Shown here: one piece after another, positions 30,513-38,664 of the stretch
Layout of the letters: every line of letters starts with the position of its first letter
Position numbering within the stretch: the first letter of the stretch is position 1
NCBI RefSeq assembly: GCF_000153185.1
Contig: NZ_CH724153.1
Coordinates: 221,016 to 285,015, forward strand
DNA: 64,000 bases
Source of the DNA: Reinekea blandensis MED297
GTDB taxonomy: Bacteria > Pseudomonadota > Gammaproteobacteria > Pseudomonadales > Natronospirillaceae
Reading direction: 5' to 3'
Translations under genes and position numbers: made by a program
The notes under the pieces: generated by a model
Told to the model about the DNA's origin: nothing
The model's database searches: none
The model's input: only the letters and a program-made list of their open reading frames with translations

Positions 30513-31718
30513 TCAGAAACCGGCTTTGCGCCAAGCCAGCATTCCACCATCGAGGTTGTATACCTGAGCAATGTTTTGCAATTGAGCCTGTTGGGCCGCT
30601 TTGGTGGATCGACCACCGGAACGACAAATAAACAGATAGCGCTTATCTTTCGGTAGCTGCTTGATTCGCTCAGGAAACTCGGTTTGCAGTGTTACCAGTT
30701 CCGTACCCTCTATGTGCCTGAGATCGTCGTTGTATTCTTCGGGTCGACGGACATCAATTAAATAGTCGAACTCATGTAATCGTCGGTGAGCTTCATTGGG
30801 TGACAGGTCCGTGACAGTCAATCCAGTAACTTCGCTGGTTTTCACGGCAAACTCCCGCACCAGGTTCTCCATGCTGGTCCGCGTTGACTCGGTTTCACGG
30901 CTGACGATGCCCAGTGTCTCTTCGAAGTCCATGTTCAAAGTCGACGATGCCTGGTCGCATTGAGTGACCGAATCACTGACTTCCTGATAAACCTTCACCA
31001 AGGCATTGGTCTGTTCTAATAAAGTATTGGAGCGTTCCTGCAGTGCCCCCGTCGTCTGTTCTATATCGGAATGACTGGTGTTCAATACAGCCTGAATGTC
31101 GTTGCTCATTGTTTGACTGGATTTCGCCAGTGATTTCATGTTGTCGGCCACCACGGCAAAACCACGGCCAGCCTCTCCCGCACGCGCCGCTTCGATGGCG
31201 GCATTCAGTGCGAGCATTTCGGCTTCCTGACCGATGGTTCTAATCGCGTCCGTTTTTTCGTGAATGCTGAGAAAGCTTTCCTGGATTTTACCAAACTGAG
31301 CTGATGTATTGCGGAAGTCGGTGAGGGTGTCATTGAGTTGTTGCATCAGTGCTGACCCGCCTTGGGTTTGCTCAGCCAGCGCACTCATCTGAGACATCAT
31401 CGATGACATCTGCGTTTGGCTGTGTTCGACCCGTTTAGCAATATCGGCCATGTTGGCTGCGCTGTTCTGAGCCTGTTTGGACGTTTCCTCAAACAGATCG
31501 CCCATCACCCGGGTTAAACTGTTCTGGGTATTTTGCGCGGATTTCAGGATCAGACCAAACATGGCCTGAAGGGATTGATCTTTGTCTTTTAACTGGTCTG
31601 TCAGTTGCAACTGATGATGTGTGTTCTGTGCTTGTTGTCGGTTATGTCGTCTCTGGGCAGGGAAGTAGCCGAGCACTAAGCCCACTAGCAGAGCAACGAC
31701 AGCAGTGATGATGATCAT
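30513..31718 (-). CDS. chemoreceptor-like signalling protein fused to a rhodanese domain
   Basis: About 401 residues from the ATG at 31718 (GGTGGA 4 bases upstream; a GTG 9 bases earlier has no site). One N-terminal membrane helix (MIIITAVVALLVGLVLGYF), a long coiled coil and an MCP signalling hairpin ([37 protein letters not shown]) lead to a C-terminal rhodanese domain with the active-site loop CRSGGRS (Cys about 365). The tip keeps [13 protein letters not shown] but has QEAEM and VVADNMK where classic MCPs have QTN and VVADEVR. There is no HAMP or periplasmic domain. It could sense sulfane sulfur or redox state from inside the cell (inference). Hemerythrins face it. Confidence 0.88.
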   Translation of the reverse strand: MIIITAVVALLVGLVLGYFPAQRRHNRQQAQNTHHQLQLTDQLKDKDQSLQAMFGLILKSAQNTQNSLTRVMGDLFEETSKQAQNSAANMADIAKRVEHSQTQMSSMMSQMSALAEQTQGGSALMQQLNDTLTDFRNTSAQFGKIQESFLSIHEKTDAIRTIGQEAEMLALNAAIEAARAGEAGRGFAVVADNMKSLAKSSQTMSNDIQAVLNTSHSDIEQTTGALQERSNTLLEQTNALVKVYQEVSDSVTQCDQASSTLNMDFEETLGIVSRETESTRTSMENLVREFAVKTSEVTGLTVTDLSPNEAHRRLHEFDYLIDVRRPEEYNDDLRHIEGTELVTLQTEFPERIKQLPKDKRYLFICRSGGRSTKAAQQAQLQNIAQVYNLDGGMLAWRKAGF

Positions 31719-31833
31719 AGAGTCCACCGGTCAGAGAAGTCAGAATCCGGGACAAACACGGCACATGACCGACCCGTACCAACCGGTTATCGGCTGGTAC
31801 GGTGTTGGGTTTAGTATTTTCGTCCGATTCGGC

Positions 31834-33927
31834 TTACTTCAGGACAAAGACGCCTTGGGCATAATGGCTGTCGTCTGTGGTTTGCAGATTAAACCCGCCC
31901 GCAAAACCCACATCGGTCGCGGTGTTGGTAAATAATCCATCCACATGACCGACGGCGCCATACGACTGGTTACCACCGTCGAGACTCAGATTGCCGTAGC
32001 CGTAATCACTCTGAAACTGGGCACCCTGAATGGTGCCGTAATAGTTCACCGACCAGGACCAATCGGGGGTGGCGCCGATATCCATCAGAGTCAGGCTGCC
32101 GACGGCTTCAGCATCGTCGAAGCTGACATCCAGTGTCGCCGTCAGGGTTGCTGAGCCATTGCCGTCGCTCATCAAACCGTTGCTGGTGGATGACGTTGCA
32201 TGCCAGTTGACCACAGAGGTCATCGATCGGGTACCGGTCAGACGTGCTTTACTGGCCGGTGGCGCGGTGACATAGAAGAACGGGGCATCAATCGATTCCG
32301 CCATGGCAAGATCAGCCGGGTCTTTTAACAGCACAGCAGGTGCCGTTGCACTGGTGTTCCAATAGCCCCATTCAATGGCATTCGTGCCATCTTCACGGAT
32401 ATCAACCGAGTTCAGCACGGTTCGGGTGGCGTTGCTGTTGCCGCGGAACACATTGTCTGGCGTTTTGTAGGTGTCGCCGATGATCGACAGGGTTTCGCTT
32501 TCCCAGTTGACGAAAACCGGTCCCTGTTTGCTCTTGACCATGTAGCCAAAGTGGGTGGCCTTGTTGTACTCGTTTACGCTGACGTTACTGGCCGCGTAGG
32601 TACCCATGCAGGTTGAGGCATCGCTCAAATCACATAAGCCAAGTTCTTGTTGGGCCAGTGTGGCATCTGCACCGGTAAAATCGGAAAAGACGATTTCGAC
32701 ATTGGGATCATTCAGATATGAAGTAAACACCAGCTTGCCATTAACAGTGTCCACGTTAAGCAAAGGCGGGGCGGTCAGCGTGCTGCCACTGTTGGTTTGT
32801 GCCGCAACTTGCGTCTCAATTTCGCTGATCAGATTATTACTGCTGGCCGGAATGCTGATGTTGTATTGAATCGTCTGATCACCACTGCGCACGCTGATGG
32901 TGAAATCAACGGCTGCAGCTGTGCTATAAACCGTCTGACCATAATCGTATGGCATTTCGTAAACGGAGGCGCGATAACCCTGAGGGTCGTCACTGACGAC
33001 GACAAAACCGGCTTTCGCTTCTGAGTTCAACAAAGACAGTATCTGATCCTGAGTTAACCGAACGTCGGCATACAGGGACAAATCGGTTTGCTGAGCAATT
33101 TCATCAACGGCATCTGACGATTCTGTGCTGCTTTCATTGGTCAGCAGGGTCGGAGCGCTGTCGTCGATGACGAGCGTGGGTTGGGTATCGTCGCTGTCGG
33201 CATCCGGTTCGTCAAAAAGATTGCTGATCAACAGGTCATCGTCGTCAGAACTCAGGTTCGCGGTGGTTTCTTCCTCGCGCTCCTCATTCGGTTCTGCCGG
33301 GGTGTTTACGCTGGTGGCCAACGGGATTTTCAGCTCACTGGGTGGCTCGACTAGGCCCTGGATGACCTGATTGTTGCCGTTGACTTTCGCGAAGCTGAAC
33401 GCACTGTCTAAACCGAGATCGAATGCCCCGGCCTGGTTTGTCAACCGAACGCCGCCTTCGTAGACGCCGACCAACAGCTCCCGATCCGTTAACAGGGCTT
33501 CGTAGTTTGTCCCACGGATACCAATGCTCGCGTTGGGGGTGCGGATTTGATACGCATCTGAATCGGATTTGCCAAAGGTGCCGGTAATGGTTCGGAAGCC
33601 ACCGGAAAGCAGCTCCATCAATACTTTTTCGTCGCGCTCGGCTGTGGAACCATGATATTCGTTGATTTTAAGGCGGGAGTTGGCTCTCAGTGCCAGCACT
33701 GCATTGTCTTGAAAACGAATGTGCAGCTCACTGTTGTCGCCTGTCACCAGCGTATCGCCGGGAAGAATGTCAGAGCGTCTTTGCAGCTCGCGCACACCGT
33801 TGGCTTCATCCAGAGCAAAGGTTTCCCCTTTTGCAATGATGACTTTGCCCACTTCAGCAAACAGGGGCGACGACAGACCGAATATGAATAGAGCAATGGA
33901 ACACAGTGTTGTCAGTCGGGTAAGCAT
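31834..33927 (-). CDS. FecR-domain exported protein with TbpB-like C-terminal barrel (putative Slam substrate)
   Basis: 697 residues. A signal peptide (cleavage after LFA, about 24) is followed by a FecR domain (about 25-140): KGETFALDE, LPGDTLVTGDNSELHIRFQDNAVLALRANS and PNASIGIRGTNYE. A long middle region rich in Asp/Glu/Ser/Thr is followed by a C-terminal beta-rich domain with repeated short strands. It ends GAVGHVDGLFTNTATDVGFAGGFNLQTTDDSHYAQGVFVLK. This pattern (G-x-FTN...AGGF...GVF) recalls transferrin-binding-protein-like barrels of Slam-dependent surface proteins. There is no lipobox. It lies 11 bases after the TPR/barrel gene and is likely its cargo. Confidence 0.7.
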   Translation of the reverse strand: MLTRLTTLCSIALFIFGLSSPLFAEVGKVIIAKGETFALDEANGVRELQRRSDILPGDTLVTGDNSELHIRFQDNAVLALRANSRLKINEYHGSTAERDEKVLMELLSGGFRTITGTFGKSDSDAYQIRTPNASIGIRGTNYEALLTDRELLVGVYEGGVRLTNQAGAFDLGLDSAFSFAKVNGNNQVIQGLVEPPSELKIPLATSVNTPAEPNEEREEETTANLSSDDDDLLISNLFDEPDADSDDTQPTLVIDDSAPTLLTNESSTESSDAVDEIAQQTDLSLYADVRLTQDQILSLLNSEAKAGFVVVSDDPQGYRASVYEMPYDYGQTVYSTAAAVDFTISVRSGDQTIQYNISIPASSNNLISEIETQVAAQTNSGSTLTAPPLLNVDTVNGKLVFTSYLNDPNVEIVFSDFTGADATLAQQELGLCDLSDASTCMGTYAASNVSVNEYNKATHFGYMVKSKQGPVFVNWESETLSIIGDTYKTPDNVFRGNSNATRTVLNSVDIREDGTNAIEWGYWNTSATAPAVLLKDPADLAMAESIDAPFFYVTAPPASKARLTGTRSMTSVVNWHATSSTSNGLMSDGNGSATLTATLDVSFDDAEAVGSLTLMDIGATPDWSWSVNYYGTIQGAQFQSDYGYGNLSLDGGNQSYGAVGHVDGLFTNTATDVGFAGGFNLQTTDDSHYAQGVFVLK

Positions 33928-33938
33928 AGTAGTCCCCT

Positions 33939-35882
33939 CTAAAACCGAAGACGTACAGCCTGACTGATCACCAGTCGGTTGCGACTGTACGCGTTAATGT
34001 TGCTGTCGACGATCTCCCATCCCAGGTTTGACAGTACCAGGAGCCAGTCAGCCGCCGGCCAGGACAGCTGCGCGTCCAGAGAAAGCACCTGATCCTGTCT
34101 TCGCTTACGCGTGGTCGACTCGTCATCGACCGTGAACAGGAGGTCATCTCCGCGGTAGTACCGCCACTGATGCTCCGCGCTGAAGGCTCCCTGTAGTTTC
34201 CAGACAACCGTCCCGCTTAATCGATATTCGTTCGACAGAGCAGACCATTCGACATGCTCATCATCCTGTCCGGCTTGCCGATGTCGCAAATAGGTGGAGG
34301 ATAAAGTGTGAACTCGTCCGCGTTCTTGAACGTCAAAAACCAGGCCTGCCAAATCTTTGACAGTCGTGTCTGATGAATCGTGTAGCCCGACTGAGATCTC
34401 AGTGCCGATTTTGACGCCCGCCCATAGCGGGCCCCAGATGTTGAACTGTTCGGACACCGACAGGTTGACCCCAGTACTCCAGGACTGGCCATTCAGCCAG
34501 CTCCATTGTGCATTGACTGGTAGTCGGGTACGCCAGCGGTCCGACTGCTGCAGTATCTGACCAGTCACGGCCAGGGCACTGCTGTCCGGTAGGGCGTCGT
34601 TGATAAAGTTCTTGTTACTGAACTCAACGCTGAACTGGCGCCCGGAGCGCTGGCTGGTCGGCTCATAGGCACCGGTTGCAAAGGTCCACTGAAGATAGGG
34701 CGAGGAGATGGCTCGGGAAGCCTCGGTCAGTTCGGTCAGGTTCAGAAGATTGCTGTCCAAGGGGCCGTTAAGCTGACTGCCGGTATTGGCGTTGCTGTCC
34801 CAGCCCATCAGTAATGTGCCACCAACATGAGTTTGTATTTGCTGTCGTCTTTCAGCCTGGTCAATCCGGTTGAGGATCAGCTGAACTCGCTGACGGACGC
34901 CCTGTGGCGGGTCCACTGCCAATACCTGCTGAAGTGCCTCTCTGGCCCGGTAAAAGTTGCCAGTCAGGTAGTAAGCCCGGCCCAGTTCAAGTCTTGCCCG
35001 ATGCTGGTTGGGTTCAAAAATCAGGACTCGTTCGAAGGAAAAGATGGCCTCATCGTAAGCGCCTTCTTGCATCTGGATAAGGCCGGTATAGAGGTCATAC
35101 CTTGGCAACCCCTCGAAGCGCTCCTGCAGTTCGTCTGCGACCACTCGGGCGGCTTGCCATTGTTGTTCATTCACCAGGGCGATTAATGTGGTCATCGGGT
35201 CCGGAAGCGCGGCATCTGTGTTAGCCGGGGTTGCTGCGGCGAGTGGCAAGACGGCTGGAACTTCTGGTTCGGGGGCGAGTAAACCGGCGGCGAACGGTGG
35301 CATGGGCGCAATAGTATCGACGGTAATAGGTTGCGCCGGGGTGTCGAGAGAGATGGTGGCCAAGGGGGCTTCGGTAGAAAGCGTGAGAATCTGGCCCTGG
35401 AATTCGAGGCTTCGAACGAGGACACGCCCCTGCAGTTGCCTGACCCTTGTTTCAAGCTCTGACACCACGCGGACTTCGAACTCCGTACCGCGAACGCCAA
35501 TGCTGGCGTGGGGGGTTCTGAGTTCGAAAGCCGACGGTTCGTTAGCCAGGGTGCCCGTTAACAGCCTCAGTCGACCATTGAGCAGCTCGAGAAAGAAGCG
35601 TGACTCGTCGGGACTGGCGGGTTGGTAGCTCGTAATAACCAACTCAGATTGGGCATCGAGTTTGACTAAGGTATTGTCGTTAAACCGCAGCGTGACGGTC
35701 GATTCGTCACCAGTGCTCAGTTGATCCCCCTCAACGAGGGTGTCCTGGCGCAGAAGCGGAGCCTGTTGCCCATCTTCAGCCGTGAGAGTGACGGCGCCTT
35801 CGGTTCGAATTACGGTCGCAACCGGTTCTGCCACTGCAATACTGGACAACATCATCAGTAGAAACAACACAGTGCAGCGCAT
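33939..35882 (-). CDS. FecR + TPR + outer-membrane beta-barrel protein (Slam-like)
   Basis: 647 residues. A signal peptide (about 1-18, ending AVA) precedes a FecR domain (EGDQLSTGDESTVTLRFNDNTLVKLDAQS, TPHASIGVRGTEFE). Then come TPRs at about 220-330 (GAYDEAIFSFERVLIFEPNQHRARLELGRAYYLTGNFYRAREALQQVL) and QGVRQRVQLILNRIDQAERRQQ. The last 300 residues form alternating amphipathic strands ending in VRLRF with a terminal Phe, as in outer-membrane barrels. TPR plus barrel is the layout of Slam translocators (DUF560). A FecR domain at the N-terminus is unusual. It is the first gene of the pair. Confidence 0.72.
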   Translation of the reverse strand: MRCTVLFLLMMLSSIAVAEPVATVIRTEGAVTLTAEDGQQAPLLRQDTLVEGDQLSTGDESTVTLRFNDNTLVKLDAQSELVITSYQPASPDESRFFLELLNGRLRLLTGTLANEPSAFELRTPHASIGVRGTEFEVRVVSELETRVRQLQGRVLVRSLEFQGQILTLSTEAPLATISLDTPAQPITVDTIAPMPPFAAGLLAPEPEVPAVLPLAAATPANTDAALPDPMTTLIALVNEQQWQAARVVADELQERFEGLPRYDLYTGLIQMQEGAYDEAIFSFERVLIFEPNQHRARLELGRAYYLTGNFYRAREALQQVLAVDPPQGVRQRVQLILNRIDQAERRQQIQTHVGGTLLMGWDSNANTGSQLNGPLDSNLLNLTELTEASRAISSPYLQWTFATGAYEPTSQRSGRQFSVEFSNKNFINDALPDSSALAVTGQILQQSDRWRTRLPVNAQWSWLNGQSWSTGVNLSVSEQFNIWGPLWAGVKIGTEISVGLHDSSDTTVKDLAGLVFDVQERGRVHTLSSTYLRHRQAGQDDEHVEWSALSNEYRLSGTVVWKLQGAFSAEHQWRYYRGDDLLFTVDDESTTRKRRQDQVLSLDAQLSWPAADWLLVLSNLGWEIVDSNINAYSRNRLVISQAVRLRF

Positions 35883-36325
35883 GTAGGCTGAGCTCCTGAA
35901 ATTTATTGGTCAATTTGGAAAGGTTGTTGGCAGTCGCGTTTTCCGTTTTTTCAGCAGAGATGATCGAAAAGCCAAACCTTCCAAGTATAGTCTTGCCTGA
36001 ATAGTTCGTCTGAACGCTGTTTCGCTTCAGAATAACCGTCTGTTCCAAAAAGTTGAAGGGATACCGTGGAAATCATGTTCATCCGGTGTCACCAAAACTC
36101 CGAGTTCTCTGCCGTTTTATCGGGCTCAGAGGAAGAAACTTTATAGTTCCTGAGCTAGAGTTCACCAAGGTCATGAGTTAAGCGTTGGTGGTCACCATCT
36201 GGCGAGACTCGGCCAGCATGACTCTCAACTCATTGATGACCAACACTGCGCGAGCTTTTTGCGGTAAGCGTGTTGGTGACGATGTCAGTCAGGATGGCCA
36301 TCGGTCTCAAACAGTCTGGAAAATT
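35883..36325. other. intergenic region between divergent FecR/barrel gene and REC-TPR gene
   Basis: About 440 bases with no convincing gene; a frame extending upstream of the REC-TPR start has no ribosome-binding site. An imperfect long-range inverted repeat, TTGGAAAGGTT (35915-35925) and AACCTTCCAA (35975-35984), is followed by TATAGT at 35986, a possible -10 element. Confidence 0.4.
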
Positions 36326-37948
36326 ATGGATTTATCGTATCTGAAAAAGAAAAAAATTCTGGTCGTTGATGATTTTGCAAACGTGCGCAGATCGGTGCGT
36401 GGGCAATTGATGGATCTGGGTATTGAACAGGTCTGGGAGGCGGCCAGCCCGGATAAAGCCATGAATGCCGTCAAAGAAACCCGGTTTGATTTAATCCTCT
36501 GCGATTACAATCTGGGAAAAGGCCGTGATGGTGCTCGGTTACTGGAGGAGTGGCGGCTGAAGAACATGATTCGGCCGGACACCATTTTTGTGCTGATCAC
36601 CGCCGAAACGGCTCGCGATGTGGTCATCAGTGCGTTGGAGTTCCAGCCTGATGATTACCTGGCGAAACCTTTCACCATGGAGGTTCTGGAAAACCGATTG
36701 CATCGTTGGTTTGAACGACGAAACACCTTGTTGCCGTTGTTGGTTTCTCTGGAAAAAGAAGACTGGTCCGCAGCGGCTCAAATGGCCAAAGAAGTGATAG
36801 AAAACCATCCGCGGCATCGCTCCATTGCGCAGAAAGCTTACGCTGAAGCCTTAATTCAACAGCAGGATTACACGGCCGCGGAGAATTTTCTGGCCGGCGT
36901 TCTGGATAAACGTTATCAAAGCTGGGCCCAGACCCAGATGTATCGGGTGGATTTACTGCAGAAAAAATATCAAGCGGCTGAAACCGGCTTGATCGAAGTA
37001 CTGACACGAGACCCCAACATGATGGATGCCTATGAGTATCTTGTGGAGTCGTTAATAGAACAGGATAAACTTGAAGAGGCACAGTCCTGGCTGGAACGTG
37101 CCGTGAGTCGTTCGCCTAAAAACATTCAGCGTCAACAAAAACTGGTGCATCTGGCGCAGAATAATCAGGACTATCGGCGTGCCAGTACGGCTGCTCGGGA
37201 TGTGATGAACATGTCTGCCGGAACGATGCATGAAAATATTGGTCATTACTTTGCGTATATCCGGAATCTTCGTACAGAAGCGGATGCCGCAGACGCAGAC
37301 GAAAGGCGACGTGAAATCACCCGGGAAATCACGTCAGTTACCCGTAAGATTCATGATCGATTTCCGCACGATATCAATGCCCATCTGTTTGGCACGGCGC
37401 TGGCGATCCAGAACGACAAGCAGTCCGGTTCGGCAAAACATGAAACCGTTTTGAACAAGTTGTTCACGGATGTATTTGATCACTTTGAACAAATTGAACC
37501 GGAAACGGCGTTGATCATCGTCGAAACCTACTATCAAATGGAACGTCTGAACGATGCTGACTCGTTGGTCACTCAGTTCCGCAAGCGCTTTGCCGATCAG
37601 CCCGATGTGATTCGTCGTCTTGATGAGCTACAGGCTGAACCGGTATCGATGGCATCGAAAACGGAAGCGAAGCAGCTGAACCTGAAAGGCATCGAACTCT
37701 ATAAAAACAAAGACTTTGCCGGATCCATACGGTTTTTTCAGGATGCAATGTCACTGTCACCACGCCATCCTGGCATCATTCTGAATCTGGTGCAGTCGCA
37801 TTTGTTGCGGATGAAATCTGAAGGCGTTAATCCAGACGAAGTTGGGGACTGTCTCGCTATTATTCGACGGCTGGAATACCTTCCAAAAGACCACTATCAA
37901 TATGAGCGATTTACCAAACTGAAATCGAATCTTGAATCCATCAGCTGA
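36326..37948 (+). CDS. response regulator with C-terminal TPR region
   Basis: About 540 residues from the ATG at 36326. The receiver domain (about 8-130) has acidic D15/D16 (ILVVDD), phospho-acceptor D60 in LILCDYNLGKG, T in LITAET and K in DDYLAKPFT. Residues 140-540 are TPR-like helical repeats, such as DWSAAAQMAKEVIENHPRHRSIAQKAYAEALIQQQDYTAAENFLAGVL and ELYKNKDFAGSIRFFQDAMSLSPRHP. There is no output enzyme or DNA-binding domain, so the receiver may switch a protein-protein scaffold. A histidine-kinase ATPase gene follows 44 bases later and is the likely partner. Confidence 0.9.
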   Translation: MDLSYLKKKKILVVDDFANVRRSVRGQLMDLGIEQVWEAASPDKAMNAVKETRFDLILCDYNLGKGRDGARLLEEWRLKNMIRPDTIFVLITAETARDVVISALEFQPDDYLAKPFTMEVLENRLHRWFERRNTLLPLLVSLEKEDWSAAAQMAKEVIENHPRHRSIAQKAYAEALIQQQDYTAAENFLAGVLDKRYQSWAQTQMYRVDLLQKKYQAAETGLIEVLTRDPNMMDAYEYLVESLIEQDKLEEAQSWLERAVSRSPKNIQRQQKLVHLAQNNQDYRRASTAARDVMNMSAGTMHENIGHYFAYIRNLRTEADAADADERRREITREITSVTRKIHDRFPHDINAHLFGTALAIQNDKQSGSAKHETVLNKLFTDVFDHFEQIEPETALIIVETYYQMERLNDADSLVTQFRKRFADQPDVIRRLDELQAEPVSMASKTEAKQLNLKGIELYKNKDFAGSIRFFQDAMSLSPRHPGIILNLVQSHLLRMKSEGVNPDEVGDCLAIIRRLEYLPKDHYQYERFTKLKSNLESIS

Positions 37949-37992
37949 TCGAATGAGGTCAGTTCACCGGAGTTCCGCAATTGGAGAACGTT

Positions 37993-38664
37993 ATGGAAAT
38001 GCAGACAATCATGGCATCGACCGTCCATGATGTTAAAAACTCACTTGGGTTGATAAATGATCAACTGAATGAGCTGGTCGGGAAATTGTCAGGTACCGAT
38101 GACAAAAGCGCTCAGGAAATCCGCAGGATTCAACTGGAGTGCGGTCGGATCAATAATGGCATGGTCCATATGTTGGGTTTATACAAGCTGCATAAAGGCA
38201 CCTTTAATCCTTCAATGGATGAGGTGTTTGTGCCGGATGTTATCCAGGACGTTGTGTTGCGGTACAGTGAGTTGCTGCAGTCCATGGGCATTGAACTTGA
38301 GGTGCACTATGAAGATGAGGACCTGGTTTGGCTGATGGACGCGAATCTGATTGAAGGGGTATTGGGGAACATCCTGACCAACAGTATTCGCTATACGCAG
38401 TCCCGGCTGACAATTATGGTTCGGGAGCGAGATGGCTGGCTGAACATTCGCATTGAGGATGATGGCGAGGGTTTTCCGGATGCTATGATCACTTTGTTGG
38501 ATCAACCCGATTCTGTCTGCTTTCAATCGGGTGCGACCGGGCTTGGTTTGTACTTTTGCCAGCAGATTGCCAAGATGCATCAGGATGGTGACCGGAAAGG
38601 TTATCTGCAGTTGAGTAACTCCAGCGAACACTCCGGCGCGATCGTCGATTTGATGCTGCCATAG
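37993..38664 (+). CDS. soluble histidine-kinase-like protein
   Basis: About 223 residues from the ATG at 37993 with GGAGA 7 bases upstream. H12 in MASTVHDVKNSLGLI is the probable phosphorylated His near the N-terminus. The HATPase_c domain has N-box GNILTNSIRYTQSR, G1 EDDGEGFPDAM and G2 TGLGLYFCQQIA. There are no membrane segments or sensor domain, so the input must come from a partner. It follows the REC-TPR gene and is probably its cognate kinase. Short kinases of this kind with REC-TPR partners are seen in pseudomonads, but the output is unknown. Confidence 0.87.
   Translation: MEMQTIMASTVHDVKNSLGLINDQLNELVGKLSGTDDKSAQEIRRIQLECGRINNGMVHMLGLYKLHKGTFNPSMDEVFVPDVIQDVVLRYSELLQSMGIELEVHYEDEDLVWLMDANLIEGVLGNILTNSIRYTQSRLTIMVRERDGWLNIRIEDDGEGFPDAMITLLDQPDSVCFQSGATGLGLYFCQQIAKMHQDGDRKGYLQLSNSSEHSGAIVDLMLP

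Follow-up and report, generated by a model that had tools for sequence, protein, structure and literature searches.

Two adjacent genes of Reinekea blandensis MED297 (Gammaproteobacteria), judged from their own sequences and those of their relatives, very probably encode a divergent type 11 (Slam/DUF560) outer-membrane secretin, gene A, and its cargo, gene B. They lie in a window of 64,000 nucleotides (contig NZ_CH724153.1 of assembly GCF_000153185.1, positions 221,016 to 285,015 of the forward strand; coordinates of the pair and its neighbours are counted from the first letter of the window). The two barrel families show profile-level homology to Slam and TbpB, respectively, and the pairing of the two genes is conserved among relatives. 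The pair appears to form a FecR branch, a variant of the type 11 secretion system (T11SS), and it is the FecR domain of the cargo, rather than FecR on both sides, that marks the system. In many related bacteria the cargo starts with FecR, in place of the lipid anchor, or the lack of any anchor, seen in known passengers; this hints at a not yet described mode of attaching an exported protein to the cell.

A first-pass annotation of this DNA had described a two-gene unit, and its layout was confirmed in all particulars: the coordinates, the signal peptides, the FecR domains, the tetratricopeptide repeats (TPRs), the terminal Phe and GVFVLK and the 11-base gap between the two genes. Both genes are on the minus strand, with AGGGGA inside the gap before the start of gene B, and Pfam recognises TPRs in gene A and none in gene B. 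A whole-genome search finds two FecR domains, those of genes A and B, and since the sole two FecR domains of the genome stand side by side we take their adjacency as non-chance. The features of the pair are as follows.

33939-35882, minus strand: gene A, FecR-TPR-barrel protein of 647 residues, putative secretin of a divergent Slam/T11SS family, C-terminal Phe
35829-35882, minus: gene A signal peptide, residues 1-18, cut after AVA (by eye; helix 4-12 in the model)
35325-35819, minus: gene A FecR region, residues 22-186 (Pfam FecR at 53-154, E 2.9e-16; model strands)
35217-35315, minus: gene A disordered linker, residues 190-222 (predicted local distance difference test score, pLDDT, below 50)
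34842-35198, minus: gene A TPR helices, residues 229-347 (Pfam TPR_19, E 1.4e-9; model helices)
33945-34835, minus: gene A predicted 14-strand outer-membrane barrel, residues 350-646 (model; family profile match to Slam)
33933-33938, minus: AGGGGA, ribosome-binding-like site of gene B (sequence reading)
31834-33927, minus: gene B, putative FecR cargo with TbpB-like C-terminal barrel, 697 residues, C-terminal GVFVLK
33856-33927, minus: gene B signal peptide, residues 1-24, without lipobox (by eye; motif count over relatives)
33352-33849, minus: gene B FecR/retention-like region, residues 27-192 (Pfam FecR, E 2.6e-14; LapA retention profile below cut-off; 5ix9 match)
33127-33315, minus: gene B acidic disordered linker, residues 205-267 (pLDDT below 50)
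32239-33075, minus: gene B middle ('handle') region, residues 285-563 (mostly folded in the model; no Pfam family better than E 1)
31837-32232, minus: gene B predicted C-terminal 8-strand barrel, residues 566-697 (model; TbpB structures; family profile match)

The barrel of gene A probably belongs with the Slam secretins

The AlphaFold2 model of gene A, built on an alignment of 55 sequences (mean pLDDT 88.8), shows a beta-rich FecR region (residues 22-186), seven TPR helices (229-347) and 14 long strands (350-646; barrel pLDDT above 90). Together with the Pfam TPR matches, the model predicts for gene A the domain order of a Slam secretin, a TPR domain followed by a 14-strand barrel; the same strand number is given for the DUF560 network (PMC8406197; papers are cited here and below from the accessible parts of their texts). 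Homology to the Slam barrel was found by HHalign, which aligned 49 family barrels (gene A included) with seven Slam barrels at a probability of 99.2% and E 6e-20 over 272 columns, the seven coming from five genomes and having been picked by a strong SlipAM match, not by experiment. The same 49 barrels reached 3.3% against four BcsC barrels, the reversed family 1.9% against Slam, and the six-row subgroup nearest gene A 84.1% (E 7.5e-6) against Slam and 0.6% against BcsC. Among the 55 whole proteins of the secretin family, SlipAM was matched by 12, TPR_Slam by 9, BBP2_2 by 9, OMP_b-brl by 4 and DUF2860 by 3 (E up to 0.001), and in whole-genome searches the partners of FecR cargos exceeded the SlipAM cut-off in several relatives. 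A sequence search of solved structures with gene A returned TPR-containing chains and a weak match to 5ix9 (E 0.07).

Gene B ends in a predicted TbpB-like barrel

The corresponding model of gene B (AlphaFold2, alignment of 52 sequences, mean pLDDT 82.7) places FecR at residues 27-192, a disordered segment between 205 and 267, and at 566-697 (pLDDT about 91) eight main strands accompanied by two very short ones, so that the C-terminal barrel for which structure prediction had been proposed as a check is indeed present in the model. When the model was compared with the PDB by Foldseek, the top four chains were TbpB (E 8.9e-6 to 8.1e-5), as were 11 of the 12 matches at E up to 0.001; the twelfth, ranking fifth, was the PupR signalling domain 6ovk. 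At the family level, HHalign aligned 47 cargo C-barrels with 13 TbpB-type barrels at 94.8% (E 5e-8), against 0.1% and 0.5% for reversed controls and 0.3% for FecR. TbpB_B_D was matched by 16 of the 47 C-barrels at E up to 0.1; HphA_C and FHBP_C had a single match each. The TbpB_B_D cut-off was exceeded in one relative shown (L075), and the NCBIfam model for Slam-dependent surface lipoproteins was matched by 6 of the 52 members of the cargo family. By its model, by Foldseek (with low scores, weighed below) and by the family comparison, gene B carries the C-terminal eight-strand TbpB-like barrel expected of a cargo.

The proposal of a Slam-type pair is thus borne out at the level of the families, by both HHalign comparisons, by the SlipAM matches of 17 of the 49 secretin barrels and by TbpB at the head of the Foldseek matches. 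The profile searches of the two C-termini likewise succeeded through the relatives: of all Slam and TbpB models in Pfam, the two proteins themselves reach TPR_Slam (E 0.035) and no other at E up to 1. The link of genes A and B to Slam and TbpB comes via relatives, profiles and structure, not via their own Pfam or NCBIfam matches.

A sequence search of solved structures with gene B gave no match up to E 5, and the middle domain of gene B matches no Pfam family better than E 1. Foldseek weakly relates the gene B model to domains D2-D3 of FliD, the flagellar cap (E 0.05); by eye the likeness falls in the middle domain, at 32608-33075. Cargo architecture varies among the relatives: a protein of 1090 residues has three successive C-barrel domains (L162, 6836-10108, identical to L082, 5189-8461), and the FecR and C-barrel parts lie in two overlapping open reading frames (ORFs), as split or broken genes, at L123 (5091-7660) and L173 (7001-9983).

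Secretin and FecR cargo are paired across relatives

With the cargo as starting point, a FecR-motif scan yielded 189 relatives, of which the best 80 were kept and gave 79 named loci, a set selected for FecR. In 65 of the 79 the cargo is accompanied by a secretin gene of the same strand, at a median gap of 9 bases and within -120 to 150 bases in 59. Three of the 14 remaining loci (L132, L133, L164) have less than 1.2 kb of upstream sequence, too short for a whole gene. Genome searches covering 12 of the 14 (without L133 and L160) found a secretin of more than 200 bits elsewhere in eight genomes and none in four; at seven of the eight distant secretins another FecR gene adjoins, and the contig of the eighth ends just past the secretin. 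Many unpaired cargos would therefore be surplus to a complete pair present in the same genome. The best named relative is from Reinekea sp. G2M2-21, with 51% identity to gene B in its best segment, and one genome of the genus (G002) has no match to either protein of the pair.

From the secretin side, the barrel profile was matched in 164 of 369 genomes of the class, and 70 loci, a subset of all listed matches, were inspected (the top 30 and 40 chosen further down the list). A FecR neighbour was present at 43 of 44 secretins with E below 1e-40, the gene A locus counted among them and the sole miss (L210) lying at a contig end, at 9 of 11 between 1e-40 and 1e-30, at 3 of 6 between 1e-30 and 1e-24 and at none of the 9 weaker ones. 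Of these 55 FecR neighbours, 53 lie on the same strand, at most 400 bases downstream of the secretin. Counted from either side, the cargo gene is linked to a T11SS-type secretin gene, and the association for which a genome-context survey had been suggested is there.

A tree of 90 barrels, made by a quick method from 15 of the 49 family rows, 68 class loci and the seven Slams, puts 68 of 69 FecR-linked secretins in one clade, with the FecR-less groups and the Slams outside; the clade support of 94 (Shimodaira-Hasegawa-like approximate likelihood ratio test) is not starred, the root split is weak (67) and no branch sets the Slams apart as one side. The sixty-ninth FecR-linked secretin (L240) falls in a FecR-less sister group, and of the 14 rows marked as lacking a FecR neighbour, two (L246, L249) group with the Slams.

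At L067 (5354-15095) one secretin without FecR is followed by four FecR cargo genes, and L073 has two cargos; one secretin may serve several cargos.

The FecR start of the cargo

An iterated profile, built partly on the proteins that it scored (controls at threshold, 1 of 756), detects a C-barrel in 23 of the 36 complete FecR proteins of the class-wide set; the plain profile does so in 16 of 36. FecR is at least as constant a partner of the secretin as the recognisable C-barrel, diverged C-barrels being hard to detect, and this constancy is the main fact that a plain Slam-cargo reading leaves unexplained.

A simple pattern finds no lipobox-like motif in 80 of 82 FecR cargos, and the other two were judged unconvincing. 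The 70-residue stretch that begins 25 residues past the FecR match contains on average 24% D+E and 3% K+R (72 proteins). The LapA retention profile is matched by 29 of the 52 cargo-family members at E up to 0.001, with a best value of 2.2e-8, and Foldseek aligns 5ix9, entitled 'Cell surface anchoring domain', with gene B at E 8.6e-3 and a template-modelling (TM) score of 0.78 by 5ix9 length, with a root-mean-square deviation (rmsd) of 1.0 over 63 columns. To see whether FecR merely takes the place of a lipid anchor, we looked beside secretins that lack a FecR neighbour: one of five TbpB-domain neighbours (at L232, L238, L249 and two at L246) has a lipobox motif, namely that of L249, itself one of the Slams compared.

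Two genomes of a single genus encode FecR-only proteins of 249-250 residues immediately next to the secretin (L218, 3217-3969; L224, 4879-5628).

Likeness to described systems

The closest described systems are T11SS/Slam systems with TbpB-type cargo, which share with the present pair a secretin of TPRs and 14 strands, an adjacent cargo with an eight-strand C-barrel and a variable middle part, and profile-level homology on both sides. Unlike them, the gene B cargo starts with FecR, has no lipobox and carries an acidic linker, and gene A, whose lineage stands apart from the Slams compared, itself carries FecR. Soluble cargos of the haemophilin kind (subcluster 1B) resemble gene B in their signal peptidase I leader and TbpB-like C-barrel (PMC8406197); in contrast, no N-terminal FecR is described for them in the accessible text, and no TonB receptor is found among five neighbour genes here. 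The short N-terminal beta domain of the LapA-type retention module of RTX adhesins resembles the first half of the FecR region, whereas those adhesins use type 1 secretion and the pair a Sec signal peptide and a Slam-type channel, and the scores of the pair stay below the cut-off.

Most known TbpB-domain cargos either carry a lipid (75.1%, subcluster 1A) or are soluble (97.8%, subcluster 1B), and nine other DUF560 clusters are given as without characterised protein in the accessible part of the same survey (PMC8406197). Seven T11SS secretins, all of cluster 1, are verified to secrete cargo, and marine cluster 3 rarely occurs with known barrel cargo (both PMC12282271). FecR, Slam and a surface lipoprotein share one locus in PMC11233812, where FecR is a separate iron-regulator gene. 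In the T11SS/Slam literature searched, outside which most subscription papers lie, we found no link between FecR and T11SS, the T11SS and Slam papers among the matches listed containing no mention of FecR; absence from print is not implied. A Slam-type clade with a recognisable FecR partner would give part of the orphan secretins a testable cargo. Strong matches to the secretin clade (E below 1e-40) occur in 44 of 369 genomes of the class, that of gene A included, and strong SlipAM matches (E up to 1.3e-20) in 5 of 274 genomes, model and sample differing between the two counts.

A possible mechanism of export and retention

We consider the explanation as a whole probable, the secretin-cargo pair of genes A and B somewhat more so, and the retention step by itself rather less likely than not. 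Both proteins would cross the inner membrane by Sec and remain unlipidated. The secretin would then recognise the C-barrel of the cargo and pass barrel and middle domain to the surface in unfolded form, as has been proposed for Slam and TbpB. Proteoliposomes carrying Slam1 take up unfolded TbpB, to a greater extent when the chaperone Skp is present, and in the authors' model Slam recognises a C-terminal motif (PMC9090332), an analogy by which gene A should export the C-terminal part of gene B. The cargo FecR might fold and stay in the periplasm while the acidic linker threads the barrel, which would keep the cargo on the cell without a lipid, much as in LapA-type adhesins a stable N-terminal retention domain holds the protein and the chain spans an outer-membrane channel (PMC6890996). 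The secretin FecR could possibly dock to the cargo FecR or to the cell wall. Retention, in which FecR would keep the start of the cargo periplasmic during export of its C-terminal part, is put forward tentatively and by analogy; it would explain why FecR is so constant and comes first in the cargo. It proposes a specific means by which a cargo without a lipid could remain cell-bound, and of the two roles that the first-pass annotation had offered for the FecR domains, anchoring in the periplasm and mutual recognition, it is anchoring that we favour, with the same reserve.

More speculatively, and in our estimate rather doubtfully, such pairs might represent a third T11SS class, common in Gammaproteobacteria, whose cargos are neither lipid-anchored nor free and stall half way. 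The folded FecR would then block the periplasmic mouth of the Slam-type barrel, with the linker in the pore and the C-terminal part folding outside. FecR would then be what stays constant in the system, and those FecR partners that lack a C-barrel would act as plugs.

Several observations weigh against a secretin-cargo pair with retention. Searched alone against Pfam at E up to 1, gene A does not match SlipAM and gene B does not match TbpB_B_D. At the loose threshold of E up to 0.1, general barrel models match the 49 secretin barrels about as often as SlipAM does (BBP2_2 19, DUF2860 14 and OMP_b-brl 14, beside SlipAM 17); general barrel likeness is therefore part of the Slam signal, although the low BcsC control score speaks against its being the whole of it. 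The seven C-barrels closest to gene B alone reach 6.6% against TbpB in HHalign. TM-scores between gene B and TbpB stay low: by target length the four best chains reach 0.21-0.24 (rmsd 23-26) and the TbpB C-lobe 5kkx 0.45 (rmsd 9.7). The reason is that the alignments span several domains, and the fold match is therefore local. Thirteen of the 36 complete FecR neighbours lack a C-barrel even by the iterated profile; they include three second FecR genes, an ORF that ends at FecR (L239), and proteins next to the secretin, in part from the same genus, that are FecR-only or proline-tailed, and at L218 and L224 no barrel cargo was recognised nearby. One member of the genus of gene A (G001) keeps a secretin without a FecR cargo (L083, 4638-7682). 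The retention idea rests on profile matches below the cut-off, genes B and A scoring 22.4 and 33.1 bits with the LapA retention model NF033682, whose cut-off is 50, and on one short structural match. Finally, the cargo beside L232, outside the FecR clade, has neither FecR nor lipobox, and secretion without any anchor therefore probably also occurs.

The G001 secretin still adjoins a response-regulator gene, and the genes that follow it read as fatty-acid synthesis.

Alternative explanations

The same T11SS pair could also export its cargo whole, FecR included, with FecR serving as a ligand-binding or adhesive module on the surface. This is improbable, though of real weight: the FecR part matches the NCBIfam models of the leptospiral surface adhesins Lsa33 (44 of 52 members) and LipL45 (34 of 52), gene B itself lying far below their cut-offs, and soluble T11SS cargos with signal peptidase I leaders are known (PMC8406197). 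That FecR immediately follows the signal peptide and is itself followed by a long, acidic and disordered linker suits a tether instead, and FecR stands beside the secretin more regularly than the C-barrel does, odd for a mere passenger, if one bears in mind that C-barrels are harder to detect. That FecR pairs with FecR in partner recognition is less probable still. Both proteins of the pair do carry FecR, as had been noted, and are the sole two in the genome that do, so that FecR on both sides stands for genes A and B; as a general recognition device it is not supported. A secretin FecR is present in 4 of the 65 named loci that have a secretin, and for this reason FecR-FecR recognition is not the general rule; it is found in 6 of 23 members of the relatives set (gene A included) and, within the genus, in gene A and G005, being absent from G003, G004 and G006, three of the four other pair-bearing genomes. 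FecR on the secretin would thus be a minority, lineage-specific addition. A quick tree, from which 18 of the 79 named loci were left out as near-duplicates or cut ORFs, separates six secretin FecRs from 66 cargo FecRs on one branch with a support of 96, and the two kinds, as separate lineages, give no sign of copying between the partners. With long branches (one of more than 8 changes per column), a program warning of long branches meeting and the quick method, this separation is a lead, not proof.

We hold two further readings to be very improbable. A secretin-like barrel of the BcsC or PgaA type might export polysaccharide, with the FecR protein as an envelope accessory. Such exporters also combine TPRs with a barrel, the best Foldseek matches of the whole gene A model in the PDB are BcsC and OmpG, with no Slam chain among the 50 matches listed, and the FecR neighbours without a recognised C-barrel would fit an accessory. 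The HHalign scores nevertheless favour Slam over BcsC by far (a comparison that covers BcsC, not PgaA), the gene A model has 14 strands rather than 16, the five neighbour genes scanned include no glycosyltransferase, and the partner has a TbpB-type barrel. Cell-surface signalling of the FecR type, in which gene B or gene A would sense a ligand and control a sigma factor, could draw on the PupR domain among the structural matches of gene B and on the divergent response-regulator gene next door. FecR anti-sigma regulators have a cytoplasmic N-terminal part and neighbours that encode a sigma factor or a TonB receptor. Both proteins of the pair instead start with what look like cleavable signal peptides and lack a cytoplasmic N-terminal part, and neither of the expected genes is among the five neighbours scanned; we do not count the pair among these regulators.

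Surroundings of the pair

Scans for promoters and terminators at the gene A/gene B locus stayed at chance level. Just downstream of the pair, 30513-31727 (minus strand) encodes a chemoreceptor signalling domain fused to a rhodanese domain. Divergent from the pair are a response regulator with TPRs (36185-37948, plus strand) and then a histidine-kinase-like ATPase protein (37981-38664, plus strand). A TPR gene divergently adjoins the secretin in ten relatives' loci, including those of Reinekea and Saccharospirillum.

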